Part shown: in pieces, positions 6,957 to 62,769 of the stretch
Layout of the letters: every line of letters begins with the position of its first letter
How positions within the stretch are numbered: the first letter of the stretch is position 1
Assembly: GCF_025960875.1 (NCBI RefSeq)
Contig: NZ_JAODLR010000001.1
Location: forward strand, 62,001 to 126,000
Direction of reading: 5' to 3'
DNA: 64,000 nt
Source: Crystallibacter permensis
GTDB taxonomy: Bacteria > Actinomycetota > Actinomycetes > Actinomycetales > Micrococcaceae
Program-made: the position numbers and the translations under genes
Notes under the pieces: generated by a model
Seen by the model: only the letters and a program-made list of their open reading frames with translations
Database searches by the model: none
Told to the model about the DNA's origin: nothing

Positions 6957-6959
6957 ATC

Positions 6960-18958: not shown

Positions 18959-18959
18959 C

Positions 18960-19047
18960 GGCCCCTCATGTGGTGTCATCCTGTGAACTCCCCCAGGACC
19001 GGAAGGTAGCAAGGGTAAGCGGGCTCTGGCAGGTGCATGAGGGGTCT
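18960..19047 (+). ncRNA. ffs: Signal recognition particle 4.5S RNA
   Basis: The central conserved core GGACCGGAAGGTAGCAAGGG followed by GGGCTCTGG is the SRP54(Ffh)-binding helix 8. The flanks GCCCCTCATG and CATGAGGGGTC pair to close a long hairpin. A TTTT run follows. Its position just upstream of dnaX is common in actinobacteria. Confidence 0.93.
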
Positions 19048-19115
19048 TTTACGTCTATCCCCAGCGCCGGGATGCCTGATGCAAAGTACGAGCCGCAACC
19101 GATAGGGTTCTTATC

Positions 19116-46743: not shown

Positions 46744-47132
46744 GCTTCCTCCCGCGCGAGCCTGGTCCAGCCCAGGGATTCGCGGTCGCGACGGGGCAGG
46801 CCTGCCACTACCAGGTCATAGGAGTCCTCGATCATGTCGCGGATCATGTCATCCGGCAGCTCGCCGTTGCAGCGGACGCCGTTCCAGTGCGTTTTGTTCA
46901 TGTGGTACGCGCCGGTGATCTCCGGATGGGCGGCACGGAGCTGCTCGGCCAGCGCCGGTTCGCACTTGAGACTGATGCTCAACGGATCCGCACCCAGGTC
47001 CGAGAGCGCGAACATCTTGGCGGGTCCGCTGCCGGCGCGCACCTTGAACACCGAGGCCTCGGGCCCAAAGGGAAAGTCCTCGAAGGCGCCCGGCTGGTCC
47101 AGGCACATGCCGCGCAGCGTTGATCCGTCCAC
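46740..47132 (-). CDS. MmcQ/YjbR-family protein
   Basis: A 130-residue protein of the MmcQ/YjbR family (CyaY-like fold, sometimes called DNA-binding). Hallmarks are FEDFPFGPEASVFKV, LKCEPALAEQLRAAHP and YHMNKTHWNGV. It is first in a chain of overlapping genes (YjbR, TPR, DUF1990). The biochemical function is unestablished. Confidence 0.88.
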   Translation of the reverse strand: MDGSTLRGMCLDQPGAFEDFPFGPEASVFKVRAGSGPAKMFALSDLGADPLSISLKCEPALAEQLRAAHPEITGAYHMNKTHWNGVRCNGELPDDMIRDMIEDSYDLVVAGLPRRDRESLGWTRLAREEA

Positions 47133-47313
47133 GCATCGAGCCTACCGCTGGCACCCGGAGTCAGGAAGATCGACGATCTGCCTGTGGAGAAGTCCGGCTT
47201 TCCAAGTCCCGTCCAAGTCTTTGGTGGGAAGATGGCCTCAAGAGTACGACGGCGGCACGCCCCTGTGGGGACGCGTTGCCTTGGGCGGTATGAGGCAGGC
47301 GGAGGTGCGGCGC

Positions 47314-48232: not shown

Positions 48233-49639
48233 TCAGGACGCGGAGACGGCTGCGCCGAGGCGGTAGCCGGCGCCGCGGTGCTGCTCAGGCAGCCGGTCGC
48301 CCTTGCCGAACATTTTGTTACGCAGTGTTCCCTCCGCGTACTCGGTCGGGTAGGCGCCGCGCTTCTGCAGTTCCGGAACGACGAATTCGACGATGTCCTC
48401 AAAGGTGCCCGGAGTGATGGCGTAGGCCAGGTTGAAGCCGTCCACATCGGTCTCGTCCACCCACTCAATGAGCTTTTTGGCAACTTCTTCGCCGGACCCA
48501 ACGGTGATCGGGCCAAAACCGCCGACGCCGACCCACTCGGCCAACTGCCGGATGGTCCACGGCTTACCGTCGTCGCCGGAGGCCTTCTGGAACGTCTCCA
48601 CTGATGACTGGATGGCGTTGGACTTCACGTTCTCGCCGATCACGTCGTCCGGCCCGTAACTGGACAGGTCCACGCCCATCCAGCCGGAGATCAGCGCCAG
48701 CGCACCGTTGACGTCCGCGTAGGACTTGTAGTCCTCGAACTTGGCCTGCGCGGTGGCGCTGTCCGGACCGGTCACCACAGTCTGCATCGCGTAGATGCGC
48801 ACGTCGTAGCGGCCGCGGCCGGCGGCCTCCACCGCATCGCGGATCTTCTTGACCGAGGCGGCCAGCATTTCCTTGGTGGGGCACGTGACGAAGACGGCTT
48901 CGGCGTTTTCCGCGGCGAACTCCGTCCCGCGCTTCGAGGCACCGGCCTGGAAGATCACCGGGGTGCGCTGCGGGCTCGGCTCGGTAATGGCGATGCCCGG
49001 AACCTTGAAGTACTTGCCCTCGTGGCCGATCTCGTGCACCTTCGCCGGGTCAACGAAGACTCCGGCCTCGCGGTCCTTGACCACGGCGTCTTCTTCCCAG
49101 GAACCTTCGAGCAGCTTGTAAACCACCTCGAGGTACTCGTCCGCGTGTGCGTACCGCTCGTCATGCTCCATCTGGTCCGTCTGGCCCATGTTGCGCGCGG
49201 CGGAGGGCAGATACCCGGTGACCACGTTCCAGCCGACGCGGCCGTTGGTCAGGTGGTCCAGCGTCGCCAGCCGGCGGGCGAAGGGGTACGGATGCTCATA
49301 AGCGGTACCGGCCGTGAGGCCGAAACCGAGGTTCTCCGTCACCGCGGCCATGGCGGAGACCAGCATAAACGGATCATTGACCGGGACCTGGGTACCTGCG
49401 CGAAGCGTGACTTCATTAGAGCCGCCGAACACGTCGTAGGTGCCCAGCACATCGGCGATGAACAGCCCGTCGAAGAGGCCCTCTTCCAGCACCTTTGCCA
49501 AGTGCGTCCAGTAGCCGATCGTCTTGTAGTCGGCGGACTTGTCCTGGGGATGGCGCCACAAACCGGGCGACTGGTGTCCAACGCAGTTCATGTCGAAGGC
49601 GTTGAAGCGGATTTGCCTGGTGGCGGGTACCAATGTCAT
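48233..49639 (-). CDS. FMN-dependent monooxygenase, NtaA/SnaA/DszA type
   Basis: A 468-residue flavin-dependent luciferase-fold enzyme that uses FMNH2 from a separate reductase. Family blocks are FNAFDMNCVGHQSPGLWRHP, LFIADVLGTYDVFGGS, LTNGRVGWNVVTGYLPSAARN, SPQRTPVIFQAGASKRGTEFAA and the late GFGPITVGSGEEVAKKLIEW. DszA and relatives act on sulfones. Here a SAM-I riboswitch upstream and the sulfur neighbours suggest cleavage of a C-S bond to release sulfite. ATG 49639 has GGAG six bases upstream. Confidence 0.88.
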   Translation of the reverse strand: MTLVPATRQIRFNAFDMNCVGHQSPGLWRHPQDKSADYKTIGYWTHLAKVLEEGLFDGLFIADVLGTYDVFGGSNEVTLRAGTQVPVNDPFMLVSAMAAVTENLGFGLTAGTAYEHPYPFARRLATLDHLTNGRVGWNVVTGYLPSAARNMGQTDQMEHDERYAHADEYLEVVYKLLEGSWEEDAVVKDREAGVFVDPAKVHEIGHEGKYFKVPGIAITEPSPQRTPVIFQAGASKRGTEFAAENAEAVFVTCPTKEMLAASVKKIRDAVEAAGRGRYDVRIYAMQTVVTGPDSATAQAKFEDYKSYADVNGALALISGWMGVDLSSYGPDDVIGENVKSNAIQSSVETFQKASGDDGKPWTIRQLAEWVGVGGFGPITVGSGEEVAKKLIEWVDETDVDGFNLAYAITPGTFEDIVEFVVPELQKRGAYPTEYAEGTLRNKMFGKGDRLPEQHRGAGYRLGAAVSAS

Positions 49640-49731
49640 TTCAGACTCCTTCATGACCGTGAAGAGCCTATACACCGGTAGCTGCGGTCGACGCGGAATG
49701 CCGCGGCGGCTACCGAAAGAATCTTGGATCT

Positions 49732-49815
49732 CCATCGGTCCTGGCGGTAGCACCTTCCTCAAAGAGGGGGTTGCTGCGGCGTCAACGAGCCAGGTCTCTC
49801 AGCCGCTCTGGATGG
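49732..49815 (-). promoter_or_regulatory. SAM-I riboswitch upstream of the NtaA/DszA-type monooxygenase
   Basis: The minus strand reads CCATC, GAGCGGCTGAGAGACC, GACGCCGCAGCAACC, GGTGCTACCGCCAGGA, then GATGG, the conserved core of the S-box aptamer closed by P1 (CCATC/GATGG). Downstream, CGGTAGC (49709-49715) can pair either with GCTACCG in the core (49745-49751) or with a second GCTACCG (49676-49682), a clear two-state switch. SAM would favour the downstream hairpin and repression. Confidence 0.88.
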
Positions 49816-49928
49816 TTACATGTCTATTCCACCGCAGTACGGCGACGGGCGCGAAATCCATACGTCATACCGGGTAATCCCCCTGCTGCTTTTCACGCAC
49901 CCGCCGTCCGCTGCCGTGGCTGATGCGT

Positions 49929-51404
49929 CTAGTCCCGGGAAATGGGAGCAGGCACATCCTGGACCAGTGAGGTCTCGGTTCCCTGCAGCCGTCGTTGCTT
50001 CGAAGCGATGACGGCACCCGTAGCAAAGCAAAGCAGGATAAGAACGACGACGGCGACCGCCAGCGCGGTGCTGTTGCCGACCAGCGACGGCAGATTCTGC
50101 AGGATCAGCACCAGAATCCCCAGCAGGCCCACGAATCCGAGCGCCGGCGCGACCGAGCGTTTCCAATCGGCCGCGGCAGCTTGCCGGCGCCGGAAGAACA
50201 CGAGCACCGCCACACTGGTCAACGTCATCAGGACCACGATCCCCAGCGAGGCGAAGCCCGCGAACCAGGTGTAGAACTGCACGATCGGATCCCAGCCGGC
50301 GACGACGGCGGTCAGCAGGAACAGGGCTACTACCGCGTTGTCCGCAATGGAAGCGAGATGCGGCGAGTTGTGCCGGGCATGGGTCCGTGCGAGCTTGCGA
50401 GGAAAGACGTCCTGTCCCGCCAGCTGGAAGAAGTAGCGCGAGCCAATGTTGTGGAAGGACAGAATGCAGGCGAAGAGGCTGGAGGCCAGCAGCACCTGGA
50501 CGATGTGGCTCCCCGCCGTCCCAAGGTACAGAGCGGTCGTTTCGGACAACAGTGTGCCAGGCGCATCCGTGGCTTTTTGCACGATCGTTTCGTCTCCCCA
50601 GACACTGATGAGCAACCAGGTGGAGAGGGCATAGAAGCCGCCCACCACGATCAAGGCCAGGTAGGTGGCCCGAGGAATTGTCTTGTCCGGATCGCGGGCT
50701 TCATCCCGGAAGATCGCGGTGGCCTCGAAGCCGATGAAGCTGAGGATGGCGAACAGCAACGCGATGCCCGGGGCGCCGGACAGGACCGTGGACGGCGTGA
50801 CGAACCCTGTTGACAGGCCCTCGGGCCCGCCTCCGCCGAAGATGATGAAGGCGTCAAGCACCAGCACGATCAGGACTTCGGCGACCAGCAGGACTGCCAG
50901 CACCTTGCCTGAGACTTCGATGTTCCGGTGTCCCAGCCATGCCACGGCCGCAAGGGCCGCGGCGGCCCACAACCACCAGGGCAGTGACGGTCCACCGTAG
51001 GCGCGCACCACTTCGTCGACCGCCGGCGCGAACAGCCCGTAGACCCCGGCTTCCAAGGCCAGGTAGGACAGCAGCGCCACGAACGCGCCGCCCAAGCCTG
51101 CGCGTCGGCCCAGCCCCTTCTCGATGTAACTGTAGAACGCACCGGCCGTGGGAACATGCGGTGTCATCGTGGTGAAGCCGACGGAGAACAGCAGGAGGAT
51201 GCCCGTCGCCAGCAGATAGATGAATGGGAGTCCGGCCCCGTTGCCGCTGGCAATGGCCAACGGCACCGTGCCGCCGATGACACCGAGCGGCGACGCGGCG
51301 GCTACAACGATCAAGACGATGCTTGCGACGCCGAGACGGCCGGACAGGCGGGGAGAGTCTGTGTTTGTCTGCGGGGCAATCGTCGGCGGGCTGGAAATGC
51401 TCAC
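49929..51404 (-). CDS. APC-superfamily permease of the sulfur island
   Basis: A 491-residue inner-membrane transporter with about 12 segments: VVAAASPLGVIGGTVPLAIA at the start, ALEAGVYGLFAPAVDEV, AILSFIGFEATAIFRDEARDP and FFQLAGQDVFPRKLARTH are typical of the APC/YhdG-like group. Its start overlaps the stop of the upstream SfnB-like gene (ATGA), so it is coupled to sulfur enzymes. Import of an organosulfur compound or methionine-related amino acid is inferred. Confidence 0.82.
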   Translation of the reverse strand: MSISSPPTIAPQTNTDSPRLSGRLGVASIVLIVVAAASPLGVIGGTVPLAIASGNGAGLPFIYLLATGILLLFSVGFTTMTPHVPTAGAFYSYIEKGLGRRAGLGGAFVALLSYLALEAGVYGLFAPAVDEVVRAYGGPSLPWWLWAAAALAAVAWLGHRNIEVSGKVLAVLLVAEVLIVLVLDAFIIFGGGGPEGLSTGFVTPSTVLSGAPGIALLFAILSFIGFEATAIFRDEARDPDKTIPRATYLALIVVGGFYALSTWLLISVWGDETIVQKATDAPGTLLSETTALYLGTAGSHIVQVLLASSLFACILSFHNIGSRYFFQLAGQDVFPRKLARTHARHNSPHLASIADNAVVALFLLTAVVAGWDPIVQFYTWFAGFASLGIVVLMTLTSVAVLVFFRRRQAAAADWKRSVAPALGFVGLLGILVLILQNLPSLVGNSTALAVAVVVLILLCFATGAVIASKQRRLQGTETSLVQDVPAPISRD

Positions 51405-52648
51405 TTCGCTGCTCCCACGTGATTGGCTTCGGCACGCGTGGCGGCAGCTTCCCGGCCTGCATCGGCGCCGGCGACACCGATGGTCCAGACATAGGGCGGC
51501 TCGGTGGCGTTGACTTCCCAGTCGCCAACGATCCGCGACTTGTAGATGAACGGGTTGTGCGTGGCCACGGTGCGCGCGTTGCGCCAGTGGCGGTCCAGCG
51601 CTTTCCCCGTGCTTGTTGACGATGCACCCAGCACATTGAACAGGGCTCCCGCCGCGTCGGGCACGAGAGCGCTCAGCACAATCTGCGCCTGCCCGGATTC
51701 AAGTTCGACGGCGATGTTGGCGGCCTTTTCGGCGTCGTCGTTCTGTAGCCGTGAAGCGAAGACCCGGTCGAGGCTCTGGGCCACGCGCAGGGTGGTGGCT
51801 TCCGCGGCGTAGGCCTTGGCGCTGATTTCGCCGACAACCTGCAGGATCTGGGCGTCGTTGCGCACCAGCGGGGCGTTGCCGTGGCCGAAGACGCGCTTTC
51901 GCTCGCGCACGTTCGCCGCGACGTCAGTGACCACGGCCTTGGCGATGCCAGCCAGGCTGACCAGCAGGATGTGCTGGTAGAGGGCCGTCTGGTAGGGGAA
52001 GCGGTCGGCGAAGGCGGAGACGTTGGCCGGGTCCACTTCGGCGTCGTTAAACACGGTGGTCCCGCTGCCTGTGAGCCGCTGGCCGAAGCCGTCCCAGTCG
52101 TCGAAGGTCTCCACGCCGGCGGTCTTGGTGGAGACGATGACCGAGACGTCCGAACCGTCCGGGCGTTTGGCCGTCACATCGACCCAGTCGGCGAAGATGG
52201 TGCCGGTGGTGTAGAACTTGCGCCCGTTCAGCACCAGCTTGCCGCCGGCTTCGTCCAGCGCGGTGCCGGTGCCGCCGACACCGGGCTCGGTCCACGCGTT
52301 GCCTGCCAGCTGGCCGTTCGCGAACCGCTGCAGCCAGACGCTGCGGTCTTCGCGGTGATGGTGGTAGAGGTGTTCCTCCGTCAGGGCGATGTGCGAGCGC
52401 AGCGCCTGCGGGATGTTGCTGTCGGCGGCGGCGAGCTCGATGAGCAGCTGGGTGAATTCTTCCCAGCTCAGGCCGTCCCCACCGAATTCCGCGGGGATGC
52501 GGGCGGCGCCGAAGCCGGCTTCCTTCAACCAGCCGATCTGCTCGAACGGCAGTTCCCTGGCCTGTTCACGGTCCAGCGCGCCGGCGGCAATGCGGGTGAA
52601 GATCGGCCGGTACTTGGCGGCGGCCTTGGAGAATGCGTTGTCGGTCAT
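51401..52648 (-). CDS. SfnB/DszC-like flavin monooxygenase, second copy
   Basis: A 415-residue acyl-CoA-dehydrogenase-fold protein. Key parts are FGAARIPAEFGGDGLSWEEF, LAGNAWTEPGVGGTGTALDE, LNGRKFYTTGTIFADWVDV and the C-terminal DRHWRNARTVATHNP. These match flavin monooxygenases such as SfnB and DszC rather than true dehydrogenases, as the usual catalytic Glu region is not evident. It lies between a second SfnB-like gene and the APC permease in one operon under the SAM-IV element. Confidence 0.82.
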   Translation of the reverse strand: MTDNAFSKAAAKYRPIFTRIAAGALDREQARELPFEQIGWLKEAGFGAARIPAEFGGDGLSWEEFTQLLIELAAADSNIPQALRSHIALTEEHLYHHHREDRSVWLQRFANGQLAGNAWTEPGVGGTGTALDEAGGKLVLNGRKFYTTGTIFADWVDVTAKRPDGSDVSVIVSTKTAGVETFDDWDGFGQRLTGSGTTVFNDAEVDPANVSAFADRFPYQTALYQHILLVSLAGIAKAVVTDVAANVRERKRVFGHGNAPLVRNDAQILQVVGEISAKAYAAEATTLRVAQSLDRVFASRLQNDDAEKAANIAVELESGQAQIVLSALVPDAAGALFNVLGASSTSTGKALDRHWRNARTVATHNPFIYKSRIVGDWEVNATEPPYVWTIGVAGADAGREAAATRAEANHVGAAK

Positions 52649-52677
52649 TGTGTGCTCCTGTGGCTCGTTCGAATCGA

Positions 52678-53919
52678 TTAGGTGTAGAGGGAGATGGGCT
52701 GGACTTCGCCGAGCAAGTAGTTCGCGCCTACCTCGACTTTTTTGTAGTCCACTGGGTCATGCAGGGTATGGGTGCGGACGTTGCGCCAGAAGATGTCGAG
52801 TCCGGTCTCCGACTTGGCAGAGGAGGAACCGGTGACCTCGAAGATCCTGTTGGCTACCTCGACTCCCACCTCAGTCGAGACGACCTTCAACTGCGCGATG
52901 CTGATCGCGATGCGGGCGCGTTCTGCGGCGGTCAGTTCATTCCCCCGGGCGATCACGGCGTCGAACTCCGTACCGATCTTGTCTGCGAGCGCTTCGACCG
53001 CGGCGATCCGCGAGGAGAGTTCGCCGTAGACTCGCTGGGTCAGCGGATCCTGGGCATAGGTTTCAGCGGGGCTGAGAAACCAGGAGTTCTTGCGGGCCAG
53101 GGTGATCTGCCGGCCGCGTTCCAGCGCCCCTTCTGCAATGCCCAGATAAAGGTTGGCGAACGCCAGCTGGATGTAGGGCGTGACCAGGGTCGAGAACGGC
53201 TCATCCCCCACTACGCCGATGCTGTCCGCGGAGGTGACGCGCACGCCGTCGTACTTGACGGAGCCGCTGGCTGAGAGGCGCTGGCCAAGCGCATCCCAAT
53301 CACCGAGGAAGTGGATCCCTTCGCGGTCATGCTCCAGCGCCAAGGCAAGGAACTTCCCGTTCTCGGCGCCGCCGTTGACAACGGCGTTGACCAGGATGGC
53401 GTCCCCCACCGAAGCTCCTGTGGAGAAGTGCTTGACTCCTGTGAGCCGATAGCCATCGCCCTCCGGAACCAGCTCCAGGTTCGGGTCCACCGGATTGACG
53501 GAGTCACCCCACGACCAGCGGCCCAGGGCCGAGCGGCGGAGCCAAAGCTCCTGGACCTGCGGACTGCCGTAGAAAACGACGGCACCAAGGTTCGCGTAGT
53601 GGTAAGCAAGGATCTGGCCGATGGAGGCATCCACCCGGCTGAGGATCCGCACGGCGTGCAGCGCGCTTTCCCAGTGCCCGCCCTCGCCGCCCCATTCGCG
53701 CGGAATGATGAGATTGATCAAGCCGGAATTGCGTAGCAACTCCACCTCGGTGTGGGGGTCTTCGTTCCTGCGGTCGCGCTCCAACACATCCGGACTCAAC
53801 GCTGCCGCGACGCCCTGGGCGATCTGGCGCCAATGGGCCAACTCTTCCCTGCTGGCTTGCCCTGACCAGGGCGAACGCGGAGCGGTGTGCACGGTTTTTT
53901 CGATGACAGGGGTGGTCAT
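52678..53919 (-). CDS. SfnB/DszC-like flavin monooxygenase, first copy
   Basis: A 413-residue acyl-CoA-dehydrogenase-fold enzyme. Visible features are LINLIIPREWGGEGGHWESAL, RWSWGDSVNPVDPNLEL, YRLTGVKHFSTGASVGDA, GQRLSASGSVKYDGVRV and DIFWRNVRTHTLHDPVDYK. The pattern matches the DszC/SfnB group acting with FMNH2 on thiophene-like or sulfonate/sulfone compounds. ATG 53919 has AGGAG six bases upstream. It is first in the operon, preceded by the SAM-IV riboswitch. Confidence 0.82.
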   Translation of the reverse strand: MTTPVIEKTVHTAPRSPWSGQASREELAHWRQIAQGVAAALSPDVLERDRRNEDPHTEVELLRNSGLINLIIPREWGGEGGHWESALHAVRILSRVDASIGQILAYHYANLGAVVFYGSPQVQELWLRRSALGRWSWGDSVNPVDPNLELVPEGDGYRLTGVKHFSTGASVGDAILVNAVVNGGAENGKFLALALEHDREGIHFLGDWDALGQRLSASGSVKYDGVRVTSADSIGVVGDEPFSTLVTPYIQLAFANLYLGIAEGALERGRQITLARKNSWFLSPAETYAQDPLTQRVYGELSSRIAAVEALADKIGTEFDAVIARGNELTAAERARIAISIAQLKVVSTEVGVEVANRIFEVTGSSSAKSETGLDIFWRNVRTHTLHDPVDYKKVEVGANYLLGEVQPISLYT

Positions 53920-53996
53920 GAGGTACTCCTGGGCAGAGGCTCCCGCCTGCCTGCGGCGCGCAACAACCCAAAGGGAAGGGGACGCAGCCGGGAGGG

Positions 53997-54110
53997 GGCC
54001 GTACTTGCCGGACACGGTTTGTGCGCGGCCAGATCCTCATCTGGGGCACCCCACTACGGGAGAGGGTTGCCGCCCAACCAGCCAGAGCTTGTCGTTGGGA
54101 CTCTTGATCT
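53997..54110 (-). promoter_or_regulatory. SAM-IV riboswitch upstream of the SfnB-like operon
   Basis: On the minus strand, P1 AGATC/GATCT closes a domain with CCCAAC...GGTTGGG, then CGGCAACCCTC and GTGGGGTGCCCCAGATGA, all characteristic of SAM-IV. The downstream CGGCAAGTACGG pseudoknot part is also present. SAM-IV is known from actinobacteria and controls sulfur genes. The start codon is 78 bases downstream. Confidence 0.78.
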
Positions 54111-54189
54111 TGGAGTTCAGTATGCCGAGGAGCCGGGCTCTCCGAAACAAAGATGAAGTTATGTGAATGCGGGCACAGCTGGGCCGCGG

Positions 54190-54606
54190 CTACAAACCGA
54201 GGTAGGGCGCCTCGATCTTCGGGCAGGTGTCCATCACGACGTCCAGCCCGGCGGCCTTGGCCCGTTCCGCGGCGGCTTCGTCGATCACGCCGAGCTGCAG
54301 CCACACGGCCTTCGCGCCGACCTCGATCGCCTGGTCCACCACGGGACCGACCTTCTGCGAGTTCACAAAACAGTTCACCACGTCGATCTCGCCAGGGATC
54401 TCCGCCAGTTTCTTGTAGCCCTTCTGCCCATGGACGTCGTCGCCCTTGAGGCTGACCGGAATGATCTCCATGCCCAGCCGATCCATCATGTAGCGGGACA
54501 CGCTCAGCGCCACGCGGCGGGGGTTGTTGGAGAGGCCGACCACGGCCCAGCGGGCCGGCGTGCTCAGCAACCGCTTGATGACTTCGGGATCATTCTGATG
54601 TGCCAT
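54190..54606 (-). CDS. CoA-binding-domain protein, YccU type
   Basis: A 138-residue Rossmann-like CoA-binding protein: RWAVVGLSNNPRRVALSVSRYM, IIPVSLKGDD, DVVNCFVNSQKVGPVVDQAI and DTCPKIEAPYLGL are visible. Its link to the sulfur genes is positional only. It is divergent from the core-MetE gene. Confidence 0.88.
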   Translation of the reverse strand: MAHQNDPEVIKRLLSTPARWAVVGLSNNPRRVALSVSRYMMDRLGMEIIPVSLKGDDVHGQKGYKKLAEIPGEIDVVNCFVNSQKVGPVVDQAIEVGAKAVWLQLGVIDEAAAERAKAAGLDVVMDTCPKIEAPYLGL

Positions 54607-54701
54607 GCCGCCAGACTACCTGCGTCACATTCACCCGGGAATGGCGGGGCGCGGTTGGCGGACTTGCGCCGGCAACACCAAATGCCATTTAGTGGGAGGA
54701 C

Positions 54702-54810
54702 CCATCCCGAGCGGCCGAGAGACCTGGATCGATGAAGCCGCAGCAACCCGCCCCCTTGAACATGCCGTCAGGCTGAACACGGGCAACGGTGCTACTGCCA
54801 GGACCGATGG
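54702..54810 (+). promoter_or_regulatory. SAM-I riboswitch upstream of the core-MetE gene
   Basis: Core elements are CCATC, GAGCGGCCGAGAGACC, GATGAAGCCGCAGCAACC, GGTGCTACTGCCAGGA and GATGG. P1 is followed at once by AAAGGAA, the ribosome site of the gene at 54825, which suggests translational control. The P3 hairpin is about 40 bases. Confidence 0.87.
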
Positions 54811-54824
54811 AAAGGAACTCCACC

Positions 54825-56036
54825 ATGTCCTCAAACACCGACCACATCCGCGTCACCCACGCCGGTTCATTGCCCCGCACGCCGGAGCTGCTGGCCGCCA
54901 ACGAGTCCAAGGAAGCCAACGGAATTACCCCGGAATTCCTGGACCTGCTCGAAACCTCGGTGATCGACGTCGTCGCTCGCCAGCGGAACCTAGGTATCGA
55001 TATACCGAACGACGGCGAGTACGGGCATGCCATGGCCAGCTCCGTTGATTACGGCGCTTGGTGGAACTACTCCTTCGCGCGCCTGGGCGGACTCGAGCCG
55101 ACCAATGTGGACCGCTGGGCCGACGCCGAAGTGCGCCGCTCCTCCCCCGGCAACATTGTGCTGACGTCCTTCCCGGACCGCCGCGACCGGCAGAAGTTCA
55201 ACGACGCCTACAACGATCCGTCGTCGGGCATCCTGGCGCATCGCAAGTCCGTCACGCAGCCGAAGATCGCCGGCCCGCTGACTTACACCGGGCATGACCT
55301 GGTGAAGTCTGACGTGACCAACCTGAAGAAGGGCCTCGACGCCGCCGGGCTGTCCGAAGGCTTCGTGGCCTCACTGTCCCCGGGCTCCTGCGCCCGCGTG
55401 GCCAACGAGTACTACAAGACGGACGAAGAGCTGCTGTACGCCTGCGCCGATGCCATGCGCGAGGAATACAAAGCGATTATCGACGCCGGCCTGACGGTCC
55501 AGCTCGATGACCCGTCCCTGGCGGAGAGCTGGGACCAGATCAACCCGGAACCCAGCCTGGAGGACTACCTGAAGTTCATCCAGCTGCGCGTCGAGGCCAC
55601 CAACTGGGCGCTGCGCGACCTGCCGCAAGAGCAGATCCGGCTGCACGTCTGCTGGGGTTCCTGGCACGGCCCGCACACCACGGACATCCCGTTCGCGGAC
55701 ATCGTCGATTCGGTACTGCAGATCGACGCCGGCGCGTACTCCTTCGAGGCCGCCAACGTCCGGCATGAGCACGAATGGCGCATCTGGGAAGGCACCAAGC
55801 TGCCCGCGGGCAAGTCCATCATTCCGGGCGTGGTCTCGCATGCCACCAACGTCGTCGAGCATCCCGAACTGGTGGCGGACCGGATTGAGCGCTTCGCCCG
55901 TCTGGTGGGCCGCGAAAATGTCATCGCCTCCACCGACTGCGGCCTGGGCGGACGCGTCCACCCGCAGATCGCGATCGCCAAGCTGGAGGCGCTGGGCCAG
56001 GGCGCGGAGCTCGCCACCAAGCGGCTCTGGAAGTAG
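54825..56036 (+). CDS. Core-MetE methionine synthase-like protein
   Basis: A 403-residue single-domain relative of the C-terminal half of cobalamin-independent methionine synthase. It begins VTHAGSLPRTPELL; zinc ligands are likely His/Cys in LHVCWGSWHGPH and Cys in STDCGLGGRVHP. Folate-binding MetE N-terminal sequence is absent. Core-MetE enzymes use other methyl donors (families MesA to MesD); which applies here is unknown. Control by a SAM riboswitch strongly suggests methionine formation or a related methyl transfer. Confidence 0.82.
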   Translation: MSSNTDHIRVTHAGSLPRTPELLAANESKEANGITPEFLDLLETSVIDVVARQRNLGIDIPNDGEYGHAMASSVDYGAWWNYSFARLGGLEPTNVDRWADAEVRRSSPGNIVLTSFPDRRDRQKFNDAYNDPSSGILAHRKSVTQPKIAGPLTYTGHDLVKSDVTNLKKGLDAAGLSEGFVASLSPGSCARVANEYYKTDEELLYACADAMREEYKAIIDAGLTVQLDDPSLAESWDQINPEPSLEDYLKFIQLRVEATNWALRDLPQEQIRLHVCWGSWHGPHTTDIPFADIVDSVLQIDAGAYSFEAANVRHEHEWRIWEGTKLPAGKSIIPGVVSHATNVVEHPELVADRIERFARLVGRENVIASTDCGLGGRVHPQIAIAKLEALGQGAELATKRLWK

Positions 56037-56070
56037 CCTCCCCGGTAATTTGCACGGCTGTCTCCCGCTG

Positions 56071-56123
56071 ACTGTGCAGATAATGCCCGTTTGCCCGCCT
56101 TGAAAGGGCATTATCTGCACAGT
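56071..56123. repeat. Perfect 18-bp inverted repeat
   Basis: Arms at 56071-56088 and 56106-56123 (ACTGTGCAGATAATGCCC and its exact complement) flank a 17-base loop. It lies after core-MetE and could terminate transcription. The AT-containing arms also suggest a dispersed repeat element. Confidence 0.75.
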
Positions 56124-56222
56124 GAACGGCGGTTAGGGCTCTTAGGGGCGCAGCTTTTGTTACGCGGCATTGTTACAGCCGCCTTGCCGAATGGGCCTTG
56201 CGTGCAGTTTAGTTGGCGTTGA

Positions 56223-56389
56223 CCATCCCGAGCGGCCGAGAGACCTGGATCGATGAAGCCGCAGCAACCCTGGTCGTTGGAAACCTCCCCTGGTTCCCGG
56301 CGATAACGAGGTGACAAGCCACGGGAACGGCTAAGCGAAAGCTGCGCCGCAAGGCTTGATCCGTAGGGTGCTACTGCCAGGATCGATGG
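56223..56389 (+). promoter_or_regulatory. ssuB: SAM-I riboswitch upstream of ssuB, with enlarged P3
   Basis: The S-box core is as at 54702, but P3 is enlarged to about 100 bases. The final GATGG of P1 runs into GAG, so the GGAG ribosome site of ssuB (56388-56391) overlaps the 3' strand of P1. Stabilising P1 with SAM would hide the ribosome site. Confidence 0.87.
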
Positions 56390-56398
56390 AGTGATCTC

Positions 56399-57253
56399 AT
56401 GACTGCAGTAATCCCGTCTGTGCGGCCGGCGGCCCCTTCCAGCCCGGACTCTTCCAGCACCGTTGACCCGGCCCACCACGCCTCGGCTTTGCCTGTTTCC
56501 TTCCGCGCGCTGCGCCGCACCTTCGGCACCGGGAACGCCGCCCACACCGTGCTCCGCGACATCGACTTCGACGTCCGGCGCGGTGAAGTCCTCGCCATCC
56601 TCGGCCCCAGCGGCTGCGGAAAGTCCACGCTGCTGCGCGCCGCGGCCGGACTCGACGCACCCAGCGCGGGCTCCGTGGACATCGACGGCACGCCGGTCCA
56701 GGGCATCGATTCGCGCTGCGCCTTCGCCTTCCAGGAACCGCGCTTGCTGCCCTGGCACACGCTTCAGGCCAACGTGGCCATCGGACTGCCGAAGGGCACC
56801 AGCGCCAAGCAGGGCAAGTCAAAAGTGGGCCGCCTACTGGAGCTGGTGGGGCTGGACAAGTTTGCCAAGCACCGCCCGCGCGAGGTCTCCGGTGGCATGG
56901 CCCAGCGCGCTTCGCTGGCCCGCGCCCTCGCCCGCAACCCCGGTGTCCTGCTGCTCGACGAGCCCTTCGGCGCCTTGGACGCGCTGACCCGGATCAAGAT
57001 GCAGGACCTGCTGCTGGACGTCCACGCCGCCGAACCGACCACCGTCCTGCTGGTCACGCACGACGTCGACGAAGCCCTGCAGTTGGCCGACCGGATCATC
57101 GTGCTGGGCAAGGAAACCGGCAAAGAGCACGACGGCGCCACCATCGTGCGTACCGTCGATGTCCCCGGCGACCGCCCGCGTAACCGTGGTTCCGTGGAGC
57201 TGGCCCGAATGCGCAGCTCCCTGCTGGCAAGCCTCGGCGTCGACGGCCACTAG
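56399..57253 (+). CDS. ssuB: Sulfonate ABC transporter ATP-binding protein
   Basis: A 284-residue ATPase of the nitrate/sulfonate/taurine family. Walker A is GPSGCGKST, signature VSGGMAQRASLARAL, Walker B VLLLDEPFGALDALTR, switch VTHDVDEAL. The N-terminus carries a Pro/Ser-rich extension of about 30 residues. ssuA begins 140 bases later. The start follows the riboswitch by nine bases. Confidence 0.9.
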   Translation: MTAVIPSVRPAAPSSPDSSSTVDPAHHASALPVSFRALRRTFGTGNAAHTVLRDIDFDVRRGEVLAILGPSGCGKSTLLRAAAGLDAPSAGSVDIDGTPVQGIDSRCAFAFQEPRLLPWHTLQANVAIGLPKGTSAKQGKSKVGRLLELVGLDKFAKHRPREVSGGMAQRASLARALARNPGVLLLDEPFGALDALTRIKMQDLLLDVHAAEPTTVLLVTHDVDEALQLADRIIVLGKETGKEHDGATIVRTVDVPGDRPRNRGSVELARMRSSLLASLGVDGH

Positions 57254-57393
57254 CCTCGCCCGACTGGTACGACGGCCAGCAGCGCCGTCGTACCTCCCCT
57301 GTTTTCCCTGAGCTATGCCGGGTCCGTTGCGGCCCGAACCACCCATGTTCCGCGGAACGTCTCCTGTTCCGCACTACTTTTGAAGGATCAATC

Positions 57394-58440
57394 ATGTCGC
57401 TTGCCAGTCGCTTTTCCCGCCGTTCACTCTTCGGCGCCGCCGCCGTTGCCACCTCCGCTTCCCTGGCCCTGACCGGCTGCGTGGCCGGCGAGGACTCCGA
57501 AGCTACCGCCGCTGCGGGTGCCGCCGGCGACGGTGTCCTGAACATCGACTTCGCCACCTACAACCCGTTGAGCCTGATCATCAAGGAAAAGGGCTGGCTC
57601 GAAGCCACGCTGGCCGAGGACGGCGTTGAGGTCAACTGGATCCAGTCCGCCGGCTCCAACAAGGCCAACGAGGCGCTGCGTTCCGGCGCCGTCGATGTTG
57701 GATCCACTGCCGGTTCCGCCGCCCTGCTGGCCCGCGCCAACGGTTCGCCGATCAAGACCATCGACCTCTACTCCCAGCCGGAGTGGTCCGCCCTGGTGGC
57801 GCTGCCCGACTCCGGCATCGAGAAGGTCGAGGACCTCAAGGGCAAGTCCGTGGCCGCCACCAAGGGCACGGATCCGTACTTCTTCCTGCTGCAGTCCCTC
57901 GAGGAAGCCGGGCTGTCGCCGGAGGACGTGACCGTGCAGAACCTGCAGCACGCCGACGGCTGGAGCGCGCTCAACAACGGCTCGGTGGACGCCTGGTCCG
58001 GCCTCGATCCGATCATGGCCGGCGCCGAGCAGGAGGGCGCGGAGCTGTTCTACCGGAACCTGGACTTCAACACCTACGGCTTCCTGAACGCCACCGAATC
58101 CTTCCTCGAGGAGGAGCCCGAGCTCGCGCAGACCGTGGTGAACGCGTATGAGAAGGCGCGTGCTTGGGCCGCCGAGAACCCGGAGGAGACCGCGCAGATC
58201 CTCGCCGACGTGGCGGGACTGGATCTCGAGGTGGCCACCACGGTGATCACCGAGCGCAGCAACCTGGACGTCGACCCGGCCCCGGGCGAAGTGCAGCGCG
58301 CAGTGCTGGAGAAGATCGGCCCGGCCTTCGTCGAAACCGGCGACGTGAAGACCCAGAAGCAGATCGACGACGCCGTCGACACGCTTCTCGTAGACTCGCT
58401 GGTGCTCAAGGCTGATCCGTCAGCCATCAAGGAATCCTGA
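57394..58440 (+). CDS. ssuA: Sulfonate ABC transporter substrate-binding lipoprotein
   Basis: A 348-residue binding protein. The leader FSRRSLFGAAAVATSASLALTGC combines a Tat-like twin Arg with a lipobox (Cys near residue 28). The mature NMT1/SsuA-type domain shows FATYNPLSLIIKEKGWLEATL, GSAALLARANGSPIKTIDLY and GKSVAATKGTDPYFFLLQSL. It binds an aliphatic sulfonate or a similar anion outside the membrane. It overlaps ssuC by one base. Confidence 0.88.
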   Translation: MSLASRFSRRSLFGAAAVATSASLALTGCVAGEDSEATAAAGAAGDGVLNIDFATYNPLSLIIKEKGWLEATLAEDGVEVNWIQSAGSNKANEALRSGAVDVGSTAGSAALLARANGSPIKTIDLYSQPEWSALVALPDSGIEKVEDLKGKSVAATKGTDPYFFLLQSLEEAGLSPEDVTVQNLQHADGWSALNNGSVDAWSGLDPIMAGAEQEGAELFYRNLDFNTYGFLNATESFLEEEPELAQTVVNAYEKARAWAAENPEETAQILADVAGLDLEVATTVITERSNLDVDPAPGEVQRAVLEKIGPAFVETGDVKTQKQIDDAVDTLLVDSLVLKADPSAIKES

Positions 58441-59366
58441 TGACGCATATCGGGAATCCGGGAGCCACCGGCAACAGCGTTATCGCCACCAGTAAAGAAG
58501 GCCTCGAGGCTACTGGCGTGACGATAACAACCGCAGGCGCAGCCCAGCCGGGTCCGGCAGGTCCTTCACAGGACCGCTCCCCGGCAAACGGATGGTCCCC
58601 GGCCGGGGTACTGGACCATGGCTGGGCGCGCCTGTTCCTTGGACTGCTCATTCCCGCCGCACTCATCGCGGCCTGGCAGTGGAGCACTTCGGTTGGCCTC
58701 TTCAGCGTGGTGCAGCTGCCTCCGCCGGCCATGGTGTTCGAGGCCGCGGCTGACCTGATCCAGCGCGGCGAGCTGGCTACGCACGTTGCCATCTCGACGC
58801 AGCGAGTACTCATCGGCTTCGCCGGCGGTGCCGCCCTGGGCCTGGCCTTCGGTGCGTTGGTGGGCCTGTCCCGCTGGGCCGATGTCCTGCTGGCCCCGAT
58901 GATCGGCGCCCTGCGTGCGGTTCCCTCCCTGGCGTGGGTCCCGCTGCTGATCCTATGGATGAAGATCGGCGAGGACTCCAAGGTCACCCTGATCCTGATC
59001 GGCGCCTTCTTCCCCGTCTTCACCACGGTGTCGCTGGCGCTGCGCCACGTGGACCGCAACCTGGTGGAAGCCGGCCGGGCCTTCGGGCTCAAGGGGCTGA
59101 AACTGCTGACCACGGTGCAGCTCCCCGCCGTCGTTCCTTCGGTGTTTTCCGGACTTCGGCTGGCGCTGGCGCAGGCCTGGCTGTTCCTGGTGGCGGCGGA
59201 ACTGATCGCCTCCTCGATGGGACTAGGCTTCCTGCTGACAGACTCACAGAATAATGGCCGTACGGACCGATTGCTGCTGGCGATCGTCCTGCTGGCTGTG
59301 ATTGGAAAGATAACCGACGCGCTCCTCGGAGTCGCGGAGAAATGGGCAGTAAAACGATGGGCATAA
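58440..59366 (+). CDS. ssuC: Sulfonate ABC transporter permease
   Basis: A 308-residue BPD-type permease. After an N-terminal extension of about 55 hydrophilic residues it has about six membrane segments and the EAA loop RHVDRNLVEAGRAFGLKGLKL, which contacts SsuB. The segment AEKWAVKRW ends the protein. The next gene begins inside its last 25 bases. Confidence 0.9.
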   Translation: MTHIGNPGATGNSVIATSKEGLEATGVTITTAGAAQPGPAGPSQDRSPANGWSPAGVLDHGWARLFLGLLIPAALIAAWQWSTSVGLFSVVQLPPPAMVFEAAADLIQRGELATHVAISTQRVLIGFAGGAALGLAFGALVGLSRWADVLLAPMIGALRAVPSLAWVPLLILWMKIGEDSKVTLILIGAFFPVFTTVSLALRHVDRNLVEAGRAFGLKGLKLLTTVQLPAVVPSVFSGLRLALAQAWLFLVAAELIASSMGLGFLLTDSQNNGRTDRLLLAIVLLAVIGKITDALLGVAEKWAVKRWA

Positions 59367-61378
59367 ACGTAGCCGAAACCACCGTCGGACAGACCCCTGC
59401 GCCGGAGCTCCCGGCCACCGTCTGGGCCGAGCCGCAGACCGAGGCCGAGCGCATCGCGTTCTGGGAGGCGGCCGCCCGGCGCCTGGACTGGACCGAGCCC
59501 TGGCACACCGCGCACTCCTCCACCCCGGTAGACACGGAAGCGCGCCGCGGGCCGGAGCTGCGCTGGTTCGACGGCGGCAGGCTCAACGCCGCCTACAACT
59601 GTGCCGACCGGCATGTGGAGGCCGGCCGCGGCGACAAGGTGGCCCTGCATTTCGAGGGCGAGCCGGGCGACTGCCGCACAGTCACCTACGCGGATCTGCA
59701 GCGCGAGATTTCCAAGGCGGCCAACGCGCTGCTGGCGCTGGGCATCACCAAGGGCGACCGCGTGGTCATCTACCTGCCGGTGATCGTGGAGACCGTGGTC
59801 ATCACGCTGGCCTGCGCCCGCATCGGCGCCGTCCACTCGCTGGTCTTCGGCGGCTTCTCCTCCGAGGCGCTGAAGTTCCGCGTGGAGGACACGCGCGCCA
59901 AGCTGCTGGTCACCACCGACGGACAGTTCCGCCGCGGCCAGGCCGTCCCGGTCAAGGCCAACGCCGATGAAGCCGTCGCGGGCGACAACGCGATCGAGCA
60001 CGTGCTGGTCATCAACCGGACCGGCCACACCGACATCAACTGGGTGGAAGGCCGCGACGTCTGGTGGCACGACGTCGTCGACACCGCCTCCGACGTCCAC
60101 AAGCCTGAGGCATTCGACGCCGAGACGCCGCTGTTCATCATGTACACCTCCGGCACCACCGGCCAGCCGAAGGGCTTGGTCCACACCACCGGCGGCTACC
60201 TGACCCAGAGCTCCTTCAGCCACGAATACCTGTTCAGCAACCCGGACCCGGCCAAGCGCGACGGCGACGTCCACTGGTGCACGGCGGATCTGGCCTGGGT
60301 CACCGCGCACACCTACGAGATCTACGGCCCGCTGTCCAACGGCGTCACGCAGGTCATCTTCGAGGGCACGCCGAACACCCCGCACCCGGGCCGGCACTTC
60401 GAGATCATCCAGCGCTACGGCGTGACCAGCTACTACACCGCGCCCACCCTGGTGCGGTCCCTGATGGGCTGGTTCCCGGACGGCATCCCCGCCGAATACG
60501 ATCTGAGCTCCATCCGCCTGTGCGGCACGGTGGGCGAGGCCGTGAACCCCGAGGCATGGCGCTGGCTGCGCACCCAGGTCGGCCGCGATTCGCTGACCGG
60601 GGATCCGGCGTCGGGCGTTCCCATGGTGGACACGTGGTGGCAGTCCGAAACCGGCGCGACCATCCTCTCCCCGCGGCAGACGGACGCGTCCTTCAAGCCC
60701 GGCTGCGCTACCCGCGCCCTGCCGGGCGTGGCCACCGACATTGTCGACGACGCCGGTGCCCGCGTGGGCGCGAACGTCCAGGGCAACATCGTGGTCACCA
60801 AGACCGGGCCCTCGATGGCGCGGACGGTGTGGGGCAATCCCGAGCGCTACTTCACGTCCTACTGGGAGAAGTACGCGGACCAAGGCTGGTTCCTGGCCGG
60901 CGACGGTGCGCGTTTCGACGACGACGGCGACACGTGGATCCTGGGCCGTACGGATGACGTGATCAACATTTCCGGCCACCGCTTGTCCACCATCGAGATC
61001 GAGTCCGCCCTGGTCTCGCACCCGGCGGTGGTGGAGGCCGGCGTCTGCCCCACGTATGACGCGAAGACCGGCCACGCCGCCACCGCGTTTGTGGTGCCGG
61101 CCGACAAGTCGTTGATTGCCGCGTCCACGGCCGCGGAGCCGACGGCTGAGCAGGCTGCGGCCGCTGCCGAGTTGCGCGCGCATGTTGCGACGCAGATCGG
61201 GCCGATCGCCAAGCCGCGCGAGATCGTGTTTGTTCCGGACGTGCCCAAGACGCGCTCAGGCAAGATTATGCGTCGCCTGCTGACCCAGCTGTTCGAGGGC
61301 AGCGCGTTGGGTGACACCACGAGCCTGCAGAACGAGCCGTGCATCGCCGACATCAAGGAGATCTGCGAGGCGCGGTAG
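59342..61378 (+). CDS. acs: Acetyl-CoA synthetase-like AMP-forming ligase
   Basis: A 678-residue acyl-adenylate ligase that activates acetate or a short acid as acyl-CoA. Motifs are MYTSGTTGQPKGLVHTTGG, TWWQSETGATILSP, GWFLAGDGARFDDDGDTWILGR and the regulatory Lys in TRSGKIMRRLL. It overlaps ssuC (25 bases if ATG 59342 is used; ATG 59357 is an alternative) and so probably belongs to the SAM-controlled sulfonate operon. A role in using the carbon acid left after desulfonation is an inference; a general acetate role is also possible. Confidence 0.88.
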   Translation: MGSKTMGINVAETTVGQTPAPELPATVWAEPQTEAERIAFWEAAARRLDWTEPWHTAHSSTPVDTEARRGPELRWFDGGRLNAAYNCADRHVEAGRGDKVALHFEGEPGDCRTVTYADLQREISKAANALLALGITKGDRVVIYLPVIVETVVITLACARIGAVHSLVFGGFSSEALKFRVEDTRAKLLVTTDGQFRRGQAVPVKANADEAVAGDNAIEHVLVINRTGHTDINWVEGRDVWWHDVVDTASDVHKPEAFDAETPLFIMYTSGTTGQPKGLVHTTGGYLTQSSFSHEYLFSNPDPAKRDGDVHWCTADLAWVTAHTYEIYGPLSNGVTQVIFEGTPNTPHPGRHFEIIQRYGVTSYYTAPTLVRSLMGWFPDGIPAEYDLSSIRLCGTVGEAVNPEAWRWLRTQVGRDSLTGDPASGVPMVDTWWQSETGATILSPRQTDASFKPGCATRALPGVATDIVDDAGARVGANVQGNIVVTKTGPSMARTVWGNPERYFTSYWEKYADQGWFLAGDGARFDDDGDTWILGRTDDVINISGHRLSTIEIESALVSHPAVVEAGVCPTYDAKTGHAATAFVVPADKSLIAASTAAEPTAEQAAAAAELRAHVATQIGPIAKPREIVFVPDVPKTRSGKIMRRLLTQLFEGSALGDTTSLQNEPCIADIKEICEAR

Positions 61379-61440
61379 CCCGTGCCCGGGGGGCCCGCAA
61401 CTCAGCCGGCCCCGAGCCTGGGCTACCGGGCTCCGGGCCC

Positions 61441-61542
61441 TGCTCGAGCCCATGTTTTGAAGGAGGCATCTGCATCATGCCTAGTCACAGCTTCAGCAGG
61501 TTCCAAAACATGGACCGTTAGGCTTGAACTTGGGCTCGAGCA
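61441..61542. repeat. Nested inverted repeats around a short frame with a strong ribosome site
   Basis: TGCTCGAGCCCA (61441-61452) pairs with TGGGCTCGAGCA (61531-61542), and CATGTTTTG (61451-61459) with CAAAACATG (61504-61512). Inside, AAGGAGG precedes ATG 61476, which encodes MPSHSFSRFQNMDR and a stop. It may be the acs terminator, a mobile-element remnant or a peptide gene. Confidence 0.55.
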
Positions 61543-61566
61543 TCCATCGTTCGCGCATAACTCGCC

Positions 61567-62400
61567 TCAGGCCACTCGACGAACTGCCGTTTTTACCTCT
61601 GCCACGACTTTCTCCGGCGTAAATACCAGGTCCTCGTACAGATAGCGCAAAGTAGGATAGCCGCTCAGGACCCCGGCGTTGTTCCGCTTCCGGTCGTTTC
61701 GAAATGATGCCCGGTCCCAGTGAAAGTCGAAGCCGTCCAACTCGACGATGAGGCATCGCTCGACAATCATGTCCACGCGTCCAAGGCCTCGGATCCGCAC
61801 TTGCGTTTCTACATGAAGTCCTGCCGTGCGGAACAGATCCCGGGCAATGACTTCAAGCGGTGAATCGGCGTCGTCCCCAATGCCGCAAACCACTTCCCGC
61901 CGGACGCCGTTCCGTTTACCCGGCAAGAGTTCCAACAACTGCTCCCGGGTTACTGCGTTCCGTCGCACTGCCGACTCTGCAATCACCAGTGCTTCCAGCC
62001 GGGGACGGCAACGGATGGCATGAAGGACGCAGTCGAGGACTGAGACGTAATTGCCCGGGCCTCGCTCGCCCAACAGCTGCCCGCGGTGCTTGACGAAGGG
62101 GCCGGTGTGCCGGCCGTTGTGGGTCCACACATGCACTTGGCCCGGATCCTTAATGGTCCATAAGCCGAGCTCTTTGGCGGCTGAGACACAAGTGAGCAAC
62201 CCGCCCGGCATCAGCGCAGCCCGGAGAACCGGGTCGGCATCCGGCGTTCCGACGAGTCCCCTCCTCAGCGCAACGATGTCCCCCTGCGCGATGGCTGCCC
62301 TGCTGCGGTAAGACCCGAAGCCCGCCTTGGCCAAGTCCGCGGCTTGGAGCGTACCCCCGTACCGCGCCACATACTCTGCGATGGGATCCACGTTCTGCAT
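61567..62400 (-). CDS. AbiEi-like/DUF559-type protein with Vsr-like C-terminus
   Basis: A 277-residue protein. The N-terminal region YVARYGGTLQAADLAKAGFGSYR looks like a winged helix; the C-terminal VDMIVERCLIVELDGFDFHWD and a basic FRNDRKRNN resemble Vsr/DUF559 nucleases (D...E-x-D). It is related in layout to 42740-43705. ATG 62400 is chosen by family N-terminus. Its position inside the sulfur island suggests an insertion; no toxin partner is seen. Confidence 0.62.
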   Translation of the reverse strand: MQNVDPIAEYVARYGGTLQAADLAKAGFGSYRSRAAIAQGDIVALRRGLVGTPDADPVLRAALMPGGLLTCVSAAKELGLWTIKDPGQVHVWTHNGRHTGPFVKHRGQLLGERGPGNYVSVLDCVLHAIRCRPRLEALVIAESAVRRNAVTREQLLELLPGKRNGVRREVVCGIGDDADSPLEVIARDLFRTAGLHVETQVRIRGLGRVDMIVERCLIVELDGFDFHWDRASFRNDRKRNNAGVLSGYPTLRYLYEDLVFTPEKVVAEVKTAVRRVA

Positions 62401-62559
62401 AGTCAAGAGGATGTCCGGACATGCAGCTCCGCGGCCAGAGTCTCTTCGCAGCTGTGGAAAACATTGTCGATATCCAGCACACTCGGCAAACTCACGGGAG
62501 AACGCAATGCGGCTAAACATTTTTGGTGCGGCCCGTAACAGTTGCGAGAATAGACGGGA
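62401..62559. other. Gap between the DUF559-type gene and the sfnG riboswitch
   Basis: No gene is supported here. It should contain the promoter of the minus-strand gene and of sfnG; TAGACG at 62551-62556 is a possible -10 just ahead of the riboswitch. Confidence 0.35.
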
Positions 62560-62648
62560 CCATCCCGAGCGGCCGAGAGATCTGGCTCTTTGACGCCGCA
62601 GCAACCATCCGGATTCCGCCGGAGAGGTGCTACCGCCAGAAGCGATGG
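62560..62648 (+). promoter_or_regulatory. sfnG: SAM-I riboswitch upstream of sfnG
   Basis: Conserved elements are CCATC, GAGCGGCCGAGAGATC, GACGCCGCAGCAACC, GGTGCTACCGCCAGA and GATGG. CCATCCGGAT inside P3 (62605-62614) is perfectly complementary to ATCCGGATGG downstream (62670-62679), so the expression platform can compete with the aptamer. Confidence 0.87.
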
Positions 62649-62769
62649 AGAGAGCGCAAGCAATCTTTGATCCGGATGGCGCAAGGCTGTCCGGCCTGCG
62701 CCCGATGGATCGTCATTGCCCGGGATTCCCGCACATCGCGCCGCGGCGCAGACTTTGAAGGAATTCGCC

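Follow-up and report, generated by a model that had tools for sequence, protein, structure and literature searches.

A SAM-I riboswitch candidate with a nested three-way-junction domain in P3 among the sulfur genes of Crystallibacter permensis

Why would five aptamers for S-adenosylmethionine (SAM), of two structural classes, lie within 13 kb of one actinobacterial genome, and are those of the same class really alike? This question is raised by a stretch of 64,000 nucleotides (nt) from Crystallibacter permensis (Micrococcaceae; positions 62,001 to 126,000 of contig NZ_JAODLR010000001.1, assembly GCF_025960875.1), hereafter the window, for which a first-pass annotation had proposed four SAM-I elements and one SAM-IV element. 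We find all five, and we find that one of the SAM-I elements, in front of ssu-like genes, carries a nested domain within its P3 helix that went unreported in the annotation. Sequence analysis establishes the aptamers, an overlap between one of them and its Shine-Dalgarno (SD) sequence, and the nested domain as a selected structure in P3 of SAM-I, found mostly before ssuB-like genes. It seems moderately likely that these genes form a sulfur-scavenging regulon responsive to SAM, in which the aptamers act as OFF switches, one of them with the nested domain in its P3.

Five SAM aptamers, with P4 missing from all four SAM-I elements

Searches with Rfam models recovered all proposed elements at positions agreeing within 3 nt, one as SAM-IV and four as SAM-I, and the observation of five aptamers of two classes is confirmed. 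The SAM-IV aptamer (53996-54109, minus strand) is an ordinary full-length member of RF00634 (95.2 bits, E 4.6e-16, above gathering, model positions 1-116 of 116). Three SAM-I elements pass the gathering threshold of RF00162 (44.4 bits), namely 49729-49818 on the minus strand (64.2 bits, E 1.2e-12) and 62557-62651 and 54699-54813 on the plus strand (54.4 bits, E 9e-10, and 47.3 bits, E 1.1e-7). The covariance models accordingly place four of the five elements above threshold, and the fifth, a SAM-I element of 173 nt (56220-56392, plus strand), falls short of it at 39.2 bits (E 2.4e-5 with the whole window searched, 1.3e-7 with 351 bases searched). Its alignment covers RF00162 positions 1-108 with an 85-residue insert in P3; because the SAM-I frame is complete around this insert, we keep the element (called 56220 below, like the others by its first coordinate) as genuine and attribute its low score to the roughly 95-nt insert that P3 holds. 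A SAM-I model of the family (R1), whose training set consisted partly of these four elements, scores them at 79.3-105.2 bits, with 56220 at 79.3 and 49729 at 105.2 bits. The SAM-I core GAGAGAYCTGGNTC, searched with one mismatch permitted, occurs four times in the window, always exactly and always at a SAM-I site; shuffled windows hold 0.17 occurrences on average, and 1 of 100 reached four. At E<=1, the whole 4.9-Mb genome gave 6 matches to SAM-I, 4 of which exceed the cut-off, and 8 to SAM-IV, which all exceed it although two are weak, among the best 150 of 407 and best 150 of 1504 first-look candidates, respectively, a scope that applies likewise to our genome-wide RNA searches generally; 5 of these 14 matches fall in the 13 kb.

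All four SAM-I elements of the window lack P4, a helix that is not known to contact SAM. They share the P3 core GCAACC/GGUGC and, as judged from sequence alone, a P2 with kink-turn-like sequence; the core holds the SAM contacts, named here in part after PMC3764141. In all 32 aligned SAM-I elements of the family, the pseudoknot strand and the 3' strand of P1 are just 4-5 nt apart, which means that P4 is missing, and P1 is the 5-bp helix CCAUC/GAUGG with a single exception. Across the 31 distinct rows of this alignment, 99.6% of cells are paired, four of the five P1 pairs are identical, and the L2/J3-4 pseudoknot is formed in 100% of cells with double changes in two of its four pairs. The 30 best-scoring SAM-I elements of a phylum-wide draw, a list biased to high scores, have a longer stretch at this position that we read as P4, and 13 of 19 further SAM-I elements from other actinobacterial families (the 13 being 87-93 nt long) read as P4-less. 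Since these 13 short aptamers lie outside the family, we dropped the idea that P4 loss is a family-specific novelty and treat P4 as optional and its loss as recurrent variation.

The leaders differ in how far the aptamer lies from the gene. A search with R1 returned 112 matches from 50 sources, of which 109 were read after removal of two duplicates and one 20.7-bit match overlapping a SAM-IV; because 40 of the sampled stretches had been chosen as SAM-I-rich or near sfnG, the tallies of genes do not represent random sampling, and a simple open-reading-frame script picked the first genes. Start codons lie 0-16 nt past the aptamer (proximal) in 59 of the 109 and 50-125 nt past it (distal) in 34, with 6 in neither class and 10 misplaced at an ATG inside GATGG. 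Proximal starts are found at 22 of 30 SsuB-like, 12 of 14 SfnB-like, 7 of 11 AcsA-like and 5 of 5 MetE-like genes, while NtaA-type leaders divide into 8 proximal, 8 distal and one between. Proximal leaders carry GGAG in or beside the 3' strand of P1, and SAM-I elements with the ribosome-binding site in P1 have already been described (Barrick and Breaker 2007, PMC2258182). In the window, 54699 and 56220 are proximal: the SD of the former adjoins the 3' strand of P1 with the start codon 11 nt on, and the SD GGAG of the latter (56388-56391) overlaps the P1 strand GATGG (56385-56389). The other two are distal, with start codons 89 nt downstream of 49729 (an NtaA/DmoA-type gene) and 118 nt beyond 62557 (sfnG).

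That the leaders bind SAM and work as OFF switches is inferred from what is established for the class. Each of the five leaders would be an OFF switch in which abundant SAM closes P1 and expression of the sulfone, sulfonate or methionine genes drops. At 54699 and 56220, closed P1 would block ribosome binding directly, because P1 adjoins or overlaps the SD and its closure would hide it. At 49729, a hairpin downstream could cover the SD, and at 62557 a predicted hairpin right after P1 overlaps the 3' strand of P1. As read from alignments, distal NtaA leaders keep GGCTC upstream of the SD in 6 of 7 cases, a possible sequestering strand, and distal sfnG leaders keep a possible hairpin overlapping the 3' strand of P1 in 11 of 11, which the minimum-energy fold lacks in some. 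Termination as a mechanism is unsupported because the number of intrinsic terminators (10) is close to the expectation from shuffles (10.5).

The nested domain in P3 of the ssu leader

The insert in P3 of 56220 forms, with the P3 base, a domain of 108 nt (56264-56371, plus strand; model R3) that has no Rfam match. P3 extends as CCCU/AGGG into a three-way junction from which hairpin A, with a mostly pyrimidine loop, and hairpin B, with a purine-rich internal loop, emerge. The structure of R3 was written by hand after the first eight long elements, which align well and whose single-sequence folds give a branched P3, and was then tried on later sequences. Over 81 distinct rows (one likely false, L290), 94.4% of cells pair compared to 39-48% in slid versions, and double changes occur in 22 of 31 pairs, a result that none of 500 shuffles equalled; among the 32 rows that are less than 80% identical, 20 of 31 pairs still show them. 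The unpaired bases G9, A42, C44 and A46 (numbered along the 108 nt) are invariant in all 79 distinct rows of a count that omitted L290, L118 and L120, followed by G100 (78 rows) and U101 (76 rows). Between the loop of hairpin A and the internal loop of B, at least three pairs, G-U counted, are possible in 46 of 47 distinct combinations, among which are CCCU/AGGG, CCCG/CGGG, CCCA/UGGG and UCCU/AGGA; of 2000 shuffles with random re-pairing, 12 scored as high, with the three lowest-scoring rows omitted and relatedness ignored. Because this test ignores relatedness, we regard a pseudoknot between the two loops as only probable.

R3 matches 83 of 395 genomes of the family in 5 of its 32 genera (89 matches) and none of the 295 other genomes of a phylum-wide draw, which included one other family member (G009). 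Nearly all matches (88 of 89) are inserts in P3 of a long SAM-I element (86 of the 87 loci L204-L290, plus L118 and L120); the remaining one (G077:C8:68349, locus L290, E 0.0057) was counted as false, having no SAM-I around it and reading like a coding gene. With two duplicate rows and this false match removed, the gene following the domain-bearing SAM-I element is SsuB-like in 81 of 88 cases, and the other seven are, as read, three ABC-lipoprotein-like, two transporter-like, one AcsA-like and one unassigned gene. An exact pattern written without SAM-I flanks, which covers part of the domain's variation, found 33 stretches in a collection of 84,980 species from which records of the window's own or near genomes may be excluded. 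All 33 are from Micrococcaceae, in records named Arthrobacter, Pseudarthrobacter or Micrococcaceae, and all lie within SAM-I. Genome G009 holds a 136-nt SAM-I element before an AcsA-like gene (L291:5814-5949, minus strand), with a P3 that resembles the nested domain in a reduced or decayed form.

The domain appears to belong to no family catalogued in Rfam, in which three of its homologues had only chance-level matches (E 1.5-7.9). A degenerate second SAM aptamer was rejected as well, since R1 matches only the host SAM-I there and the SAM-IV model R2 matched no long-P3 element in the 50 loci run. In the open-access literature searched, we found neither a nested domain in P3 of SAM-I nor regulation of Arthrobacter sfnG or ssu by SAM-I.

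Several results weigh against a SAM-responsive regulon with a selected domain in P3. The window SAM-I elements are without P4, and the only one with the domain is also the one that fails the RF00162 gathering threshold. Its fold z-score is only -1.93, compared to -3.7 to -5.8 for three other homologues. RNAalifold recovers P3 and hairpin A from the first eight sequences and places another small helix instead of hairpin B, and the pair counts use an alignment fitted to the hand-written structure. The training of R3 included the P3 base, and the model therefore leans to SAM-I context. In other genera, and also in L116 from a genome of the same genus, SsuB-like genes stand behind a short-P3 SAM-I, so that SAM-I control can do without the domain and any second input would be dispensable. 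A scan for sigma-70 promoters found none, compared to 1.5 in shuffles.

What the domain does is a separate question. Its restriction mostly to one operon across five genera, its invariant unpaired bases and its freely varying helices suggest a role beyond that of a strut. Our weak guess, for which we see not quite even prospects, is that it provides the ssu operon with a second input, one that makes P1 easier or harder to close. Its closest competitor, quite possible if somewhat short of probable, is a passive structural extension that stiffens the P4-less SAM-I or speeds its folding and senses nothing. Such a role would suit the absence of P4 in 32 of 32 aligned family elements, the variable length of P3 elsewhere (40-43 nt in four MetE-type leaders) and the decayed-looking P3 of the 136-nt element in G009. 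Yet 101 of the 109 SAM-I elements read manage without an insert at 87-119 nt, and five of 15 domain-bearing loci searched (L297, L300, L302, L304 and L306) also hold a full-scoring insert-free SAM-I nearby. Four unpaired bases fixed in 79 of 79 rows amid varying helices are also more than would be expected of a strut. The second-input reading can be made more specific: tentatively, and on the doubtful side, the ssu leader may be a nested two-input riboswitch in which a putative aptamer inside P3 of SAM-I gates the switch between P1 and the SD. Equally tentative is the nature of such a second signal, which might be a sulfur metabolite, a tRNA or a protein and would allow SAM status and sulfur-source status to be integrated.

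Genes under the aptamers and the exchange of aptamer classes

The sulfone-, sulfonate- and methionine-type genes that had been placed downstream of the aptamers are seen in NCBIfam and Pfam profile matches, although several gene names rest on matches below the NCBIfam cut-off. The 56220 SAM-I element heads a run of ssuBAC-like genes and an acetate-CoA-ligase-like gene on the plus strand. These are an SsuB-like ABC ATPase (56399-57253; top NCBIfam match NF008420 for aliphatic sulfonates, below cut-off), an SsuA-like substrate-binding protein (57394-58440; TIGR01728, 217.8 bits, cut-off 163.5), an SsuC-like permease (58440-59366; NF008470, below cut-off) and the ligase-like protein (59342-61378; TIGR02188, 764.1 bits, cut-off 724.95). 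On the same strand, 54699 precedes a short, 403-residue protein resembling cobalamin-independent methionine synthase (MetE-like, 54825-56036; PF01717, 51.8 bits; NF003317 below cut-off), and 62557 precedes the SfnG dimethylsulfone monooxygenase (394 residues, 62770-63954; TIGR04021, 615.9 bits, cut-off 382.95), behind which a metY-like gene (TIGR01326, 597.3 bits, cut-off 495.1) and a CoA-binding-like gene follow past the window end. The minus-strand run behind SAM-IV starts with a DszC/SfnB-like oxidoreductase (52678-53919, start taken from sequence; NF043015, 267.5 bits, and TIGR04022, 255.8 bits, both below cut-off), followed by an SfnB-like oxidoreductase of acyl-CoA-dehydrogenase fold (51401-52648; TIGR04022, 238.8 bits, under the cut-off of 430.9) and an APC-type amino-acid permease (49929-51404; PF13520). 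Beyond these lies the gene downstream of 49729, which encodes an NtaA/DmoA family monooxygenase dependent on flavin mononucleotide (468 residues, 48233-49639; TIGR03860, 547.5 bits, cut-off 279.7; start picked by SD). A protein with a CoA-binding domain (54190-54606, minus strand; PF13380, 121.3 bits) is encoded between SAM-IV and the 54699 SAM-I.

Five separate transcription units, as first proposed, are plausible. The minus-strand run 48233-54109 has SAM-IV before its first gene and SAM-I between genes 3 and 4, and if this run is an operon, a single transcript could bear both classes. Four relatives of genus g9 (loci L294, L295, L303 and L307) have ssu-like genes, a ligase-like gene, sfnG and metY in one same-strand run downstream of a single long-P3 SAM-I.

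The co-occurrence of two classes had been taken to suggest graded responses to SAM. We consider this improbable, even though SAM-IV and SAM-I are neighbours in the window as well as in G007, G061 and G119 and a divergent mixed pair exists in G117, because related genes are found under different classes in different species. The SfnB-like oxidoreductases of the window belong to the gene run of SAM-IV, whereas those of other genera (34-49% identical) follow SAM-I, and SfnB-like genes come after 14 of the 109 SAM-I elements read; likewise, flavin reductases of 46% identity are found behind SAM-IV here and behind SAM-I in L144 and L146. Among 120 family genomes drawn, SAM-IV is present in all and SAM-I in 99 (E<=0.001; 91 over the cut-off), an occurrence that fits general versus accessory elements better than doses. 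The gene following the 30 best-scoring SAM-IV loci is metY-like in 25 and SufS-like in 2 (3 unassigned), and the SAM-I loci read have mostly scavenging-type genes downstream. To judge from these comparisons, the class swaps look like regulatory turnover rather than a dose ladder, with SAM-IV looking like the housekeeping or general element and SAM-I like the accessory element of scavenging genes, and with a border between them that shifts. That related sulfur genes stand under SAM-I in one species and under SAM-IV in another argues against reading mixed clusters as dose ladders. The mixed layout itself is common, in whole or part, to the window, G061, G119 and G007, and in G117 (locus L133) a SAM-I (6702-6800, minus strand) and a SAM-IV (6917-7031, plus strand) stand back to back, divergent and about 115 bp apart.

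Outside the window, SAM-I precedes a pair of OsmC-like and symporter-like genes and, on contig C20, a sugar-type ABC transporter. SAM-IV precedes metY-metX-like, SufS-like, flavin-reductase-like and OsmC-like genes and a rhodanese-like/metZ-like pair, the names rhodanese, metX and metZ being readings of the sequences. The two weak SAM-IV matches both lie on C28 (47363-47485, plus strand, 58 bits; 47032-47198, minus strand, 39.9 bits; cut-off 38), about 165 bp apart, one of them before a reading frame of VapC-like look. The C20 SAM-I (48398-48495; L018:2399-2496) has its core changed to GCAAAU...AUAGUGC. A motif search upstream of homologous transporter genes, of which 245 genomes yielded 14, found SAM-I in 14 of 14 (L309-L322); as read, 11 have a changed core of the form GCAA R Y ... 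UAGUGC instead of the usual GCAACC...GGUGC (a purine for the C of a C-G pair, or related), two have the usual core and one another change. Aptamers of this type are candidates for altered ligand specificity, but as the two relatives with the usual core have it in front of this very gene, SAM may still be their ligand. In spermidine-sensing SAM-I variants, the alterations fall in J1/2 and in the internal loop of P3 (PMC10853860). An ordinary bacterial small signal recognition particle RNA lies elsewhere in the window (18957-19052, plus strand; Rfam, 71.3 bits).

Relation to known riboswitches and implications

The window SAM-I elements resemble the S box consensus (RF00162) in P1, in P2 with its kink-turn-like sequence, in the L2/J3-4 pseudoknot, in the P3 core and in the sulfur genes downstream. 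They differ in their nearly invariant P1 and in the absence of P4, which the consensus drawing has, and 56220 differs further in the nested three-way junction of its P3. The lack of P4 is common to SAM-IV (PMC6890682). Unlike in SAM-IV, the two proximal SAM-I leaders have their start codon roughly 10-15 nt past P1, which leaves no room for a P5 and PK-2 of SAM-IV type. The same source describes in SAM-IV a pseudoknot PK-2 joined to the P5 stem-loop, by analogy with which the nested domain could be a translation element whose loop A, often CUCC (44 of 88 homologues; 51 with G-U pairs), pairs with the GGAG of the SD instead of the internal loop as a second SD cover; this is very unlikely and was set aside as a general function, as 37 of 88 homologues have no such complement and the internal loop can serve as partner in 46 of 47 distinct combinations.

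For the reading of the domain as a second input, other systems offer partial parallels. In Xanthomonas, a SAM-I element also senses uncharged initiator tRNA (PMC7270179), which is a precedent for a second input. Both systems would be translational, but two inputs are described there and only proposed here, and the second input of Xanthomonas binds the expression platform, whereas the extra domain here sits within P3. Tandem riboswitches (PMC9481103) similarly have two sensors per leader that would combine signals, arranged in series rather than with one nested in a helix of the other. The optional P3a stem of thiamine pyrophosphate (TPP) riboswitches (PMC2258182) is likewise an extra arm on an aptamer helix, but the insert here contains a conserved junction of its own and probably a pseudoknot.

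SAM-I is common and well studied, and Rfam scoring penalises the roughly 95-nt P3 domain of this lineage rather than reporting it. If the domain senses something, it would make the ssu leader a nested riboswitch, an arrangement that we did not find described in the open-access literature, and its tie to mostly one operon would keep the search for a ligand small. Even if it is passive, the domain shows how far a core helix of a riboswitch can be remodelled.

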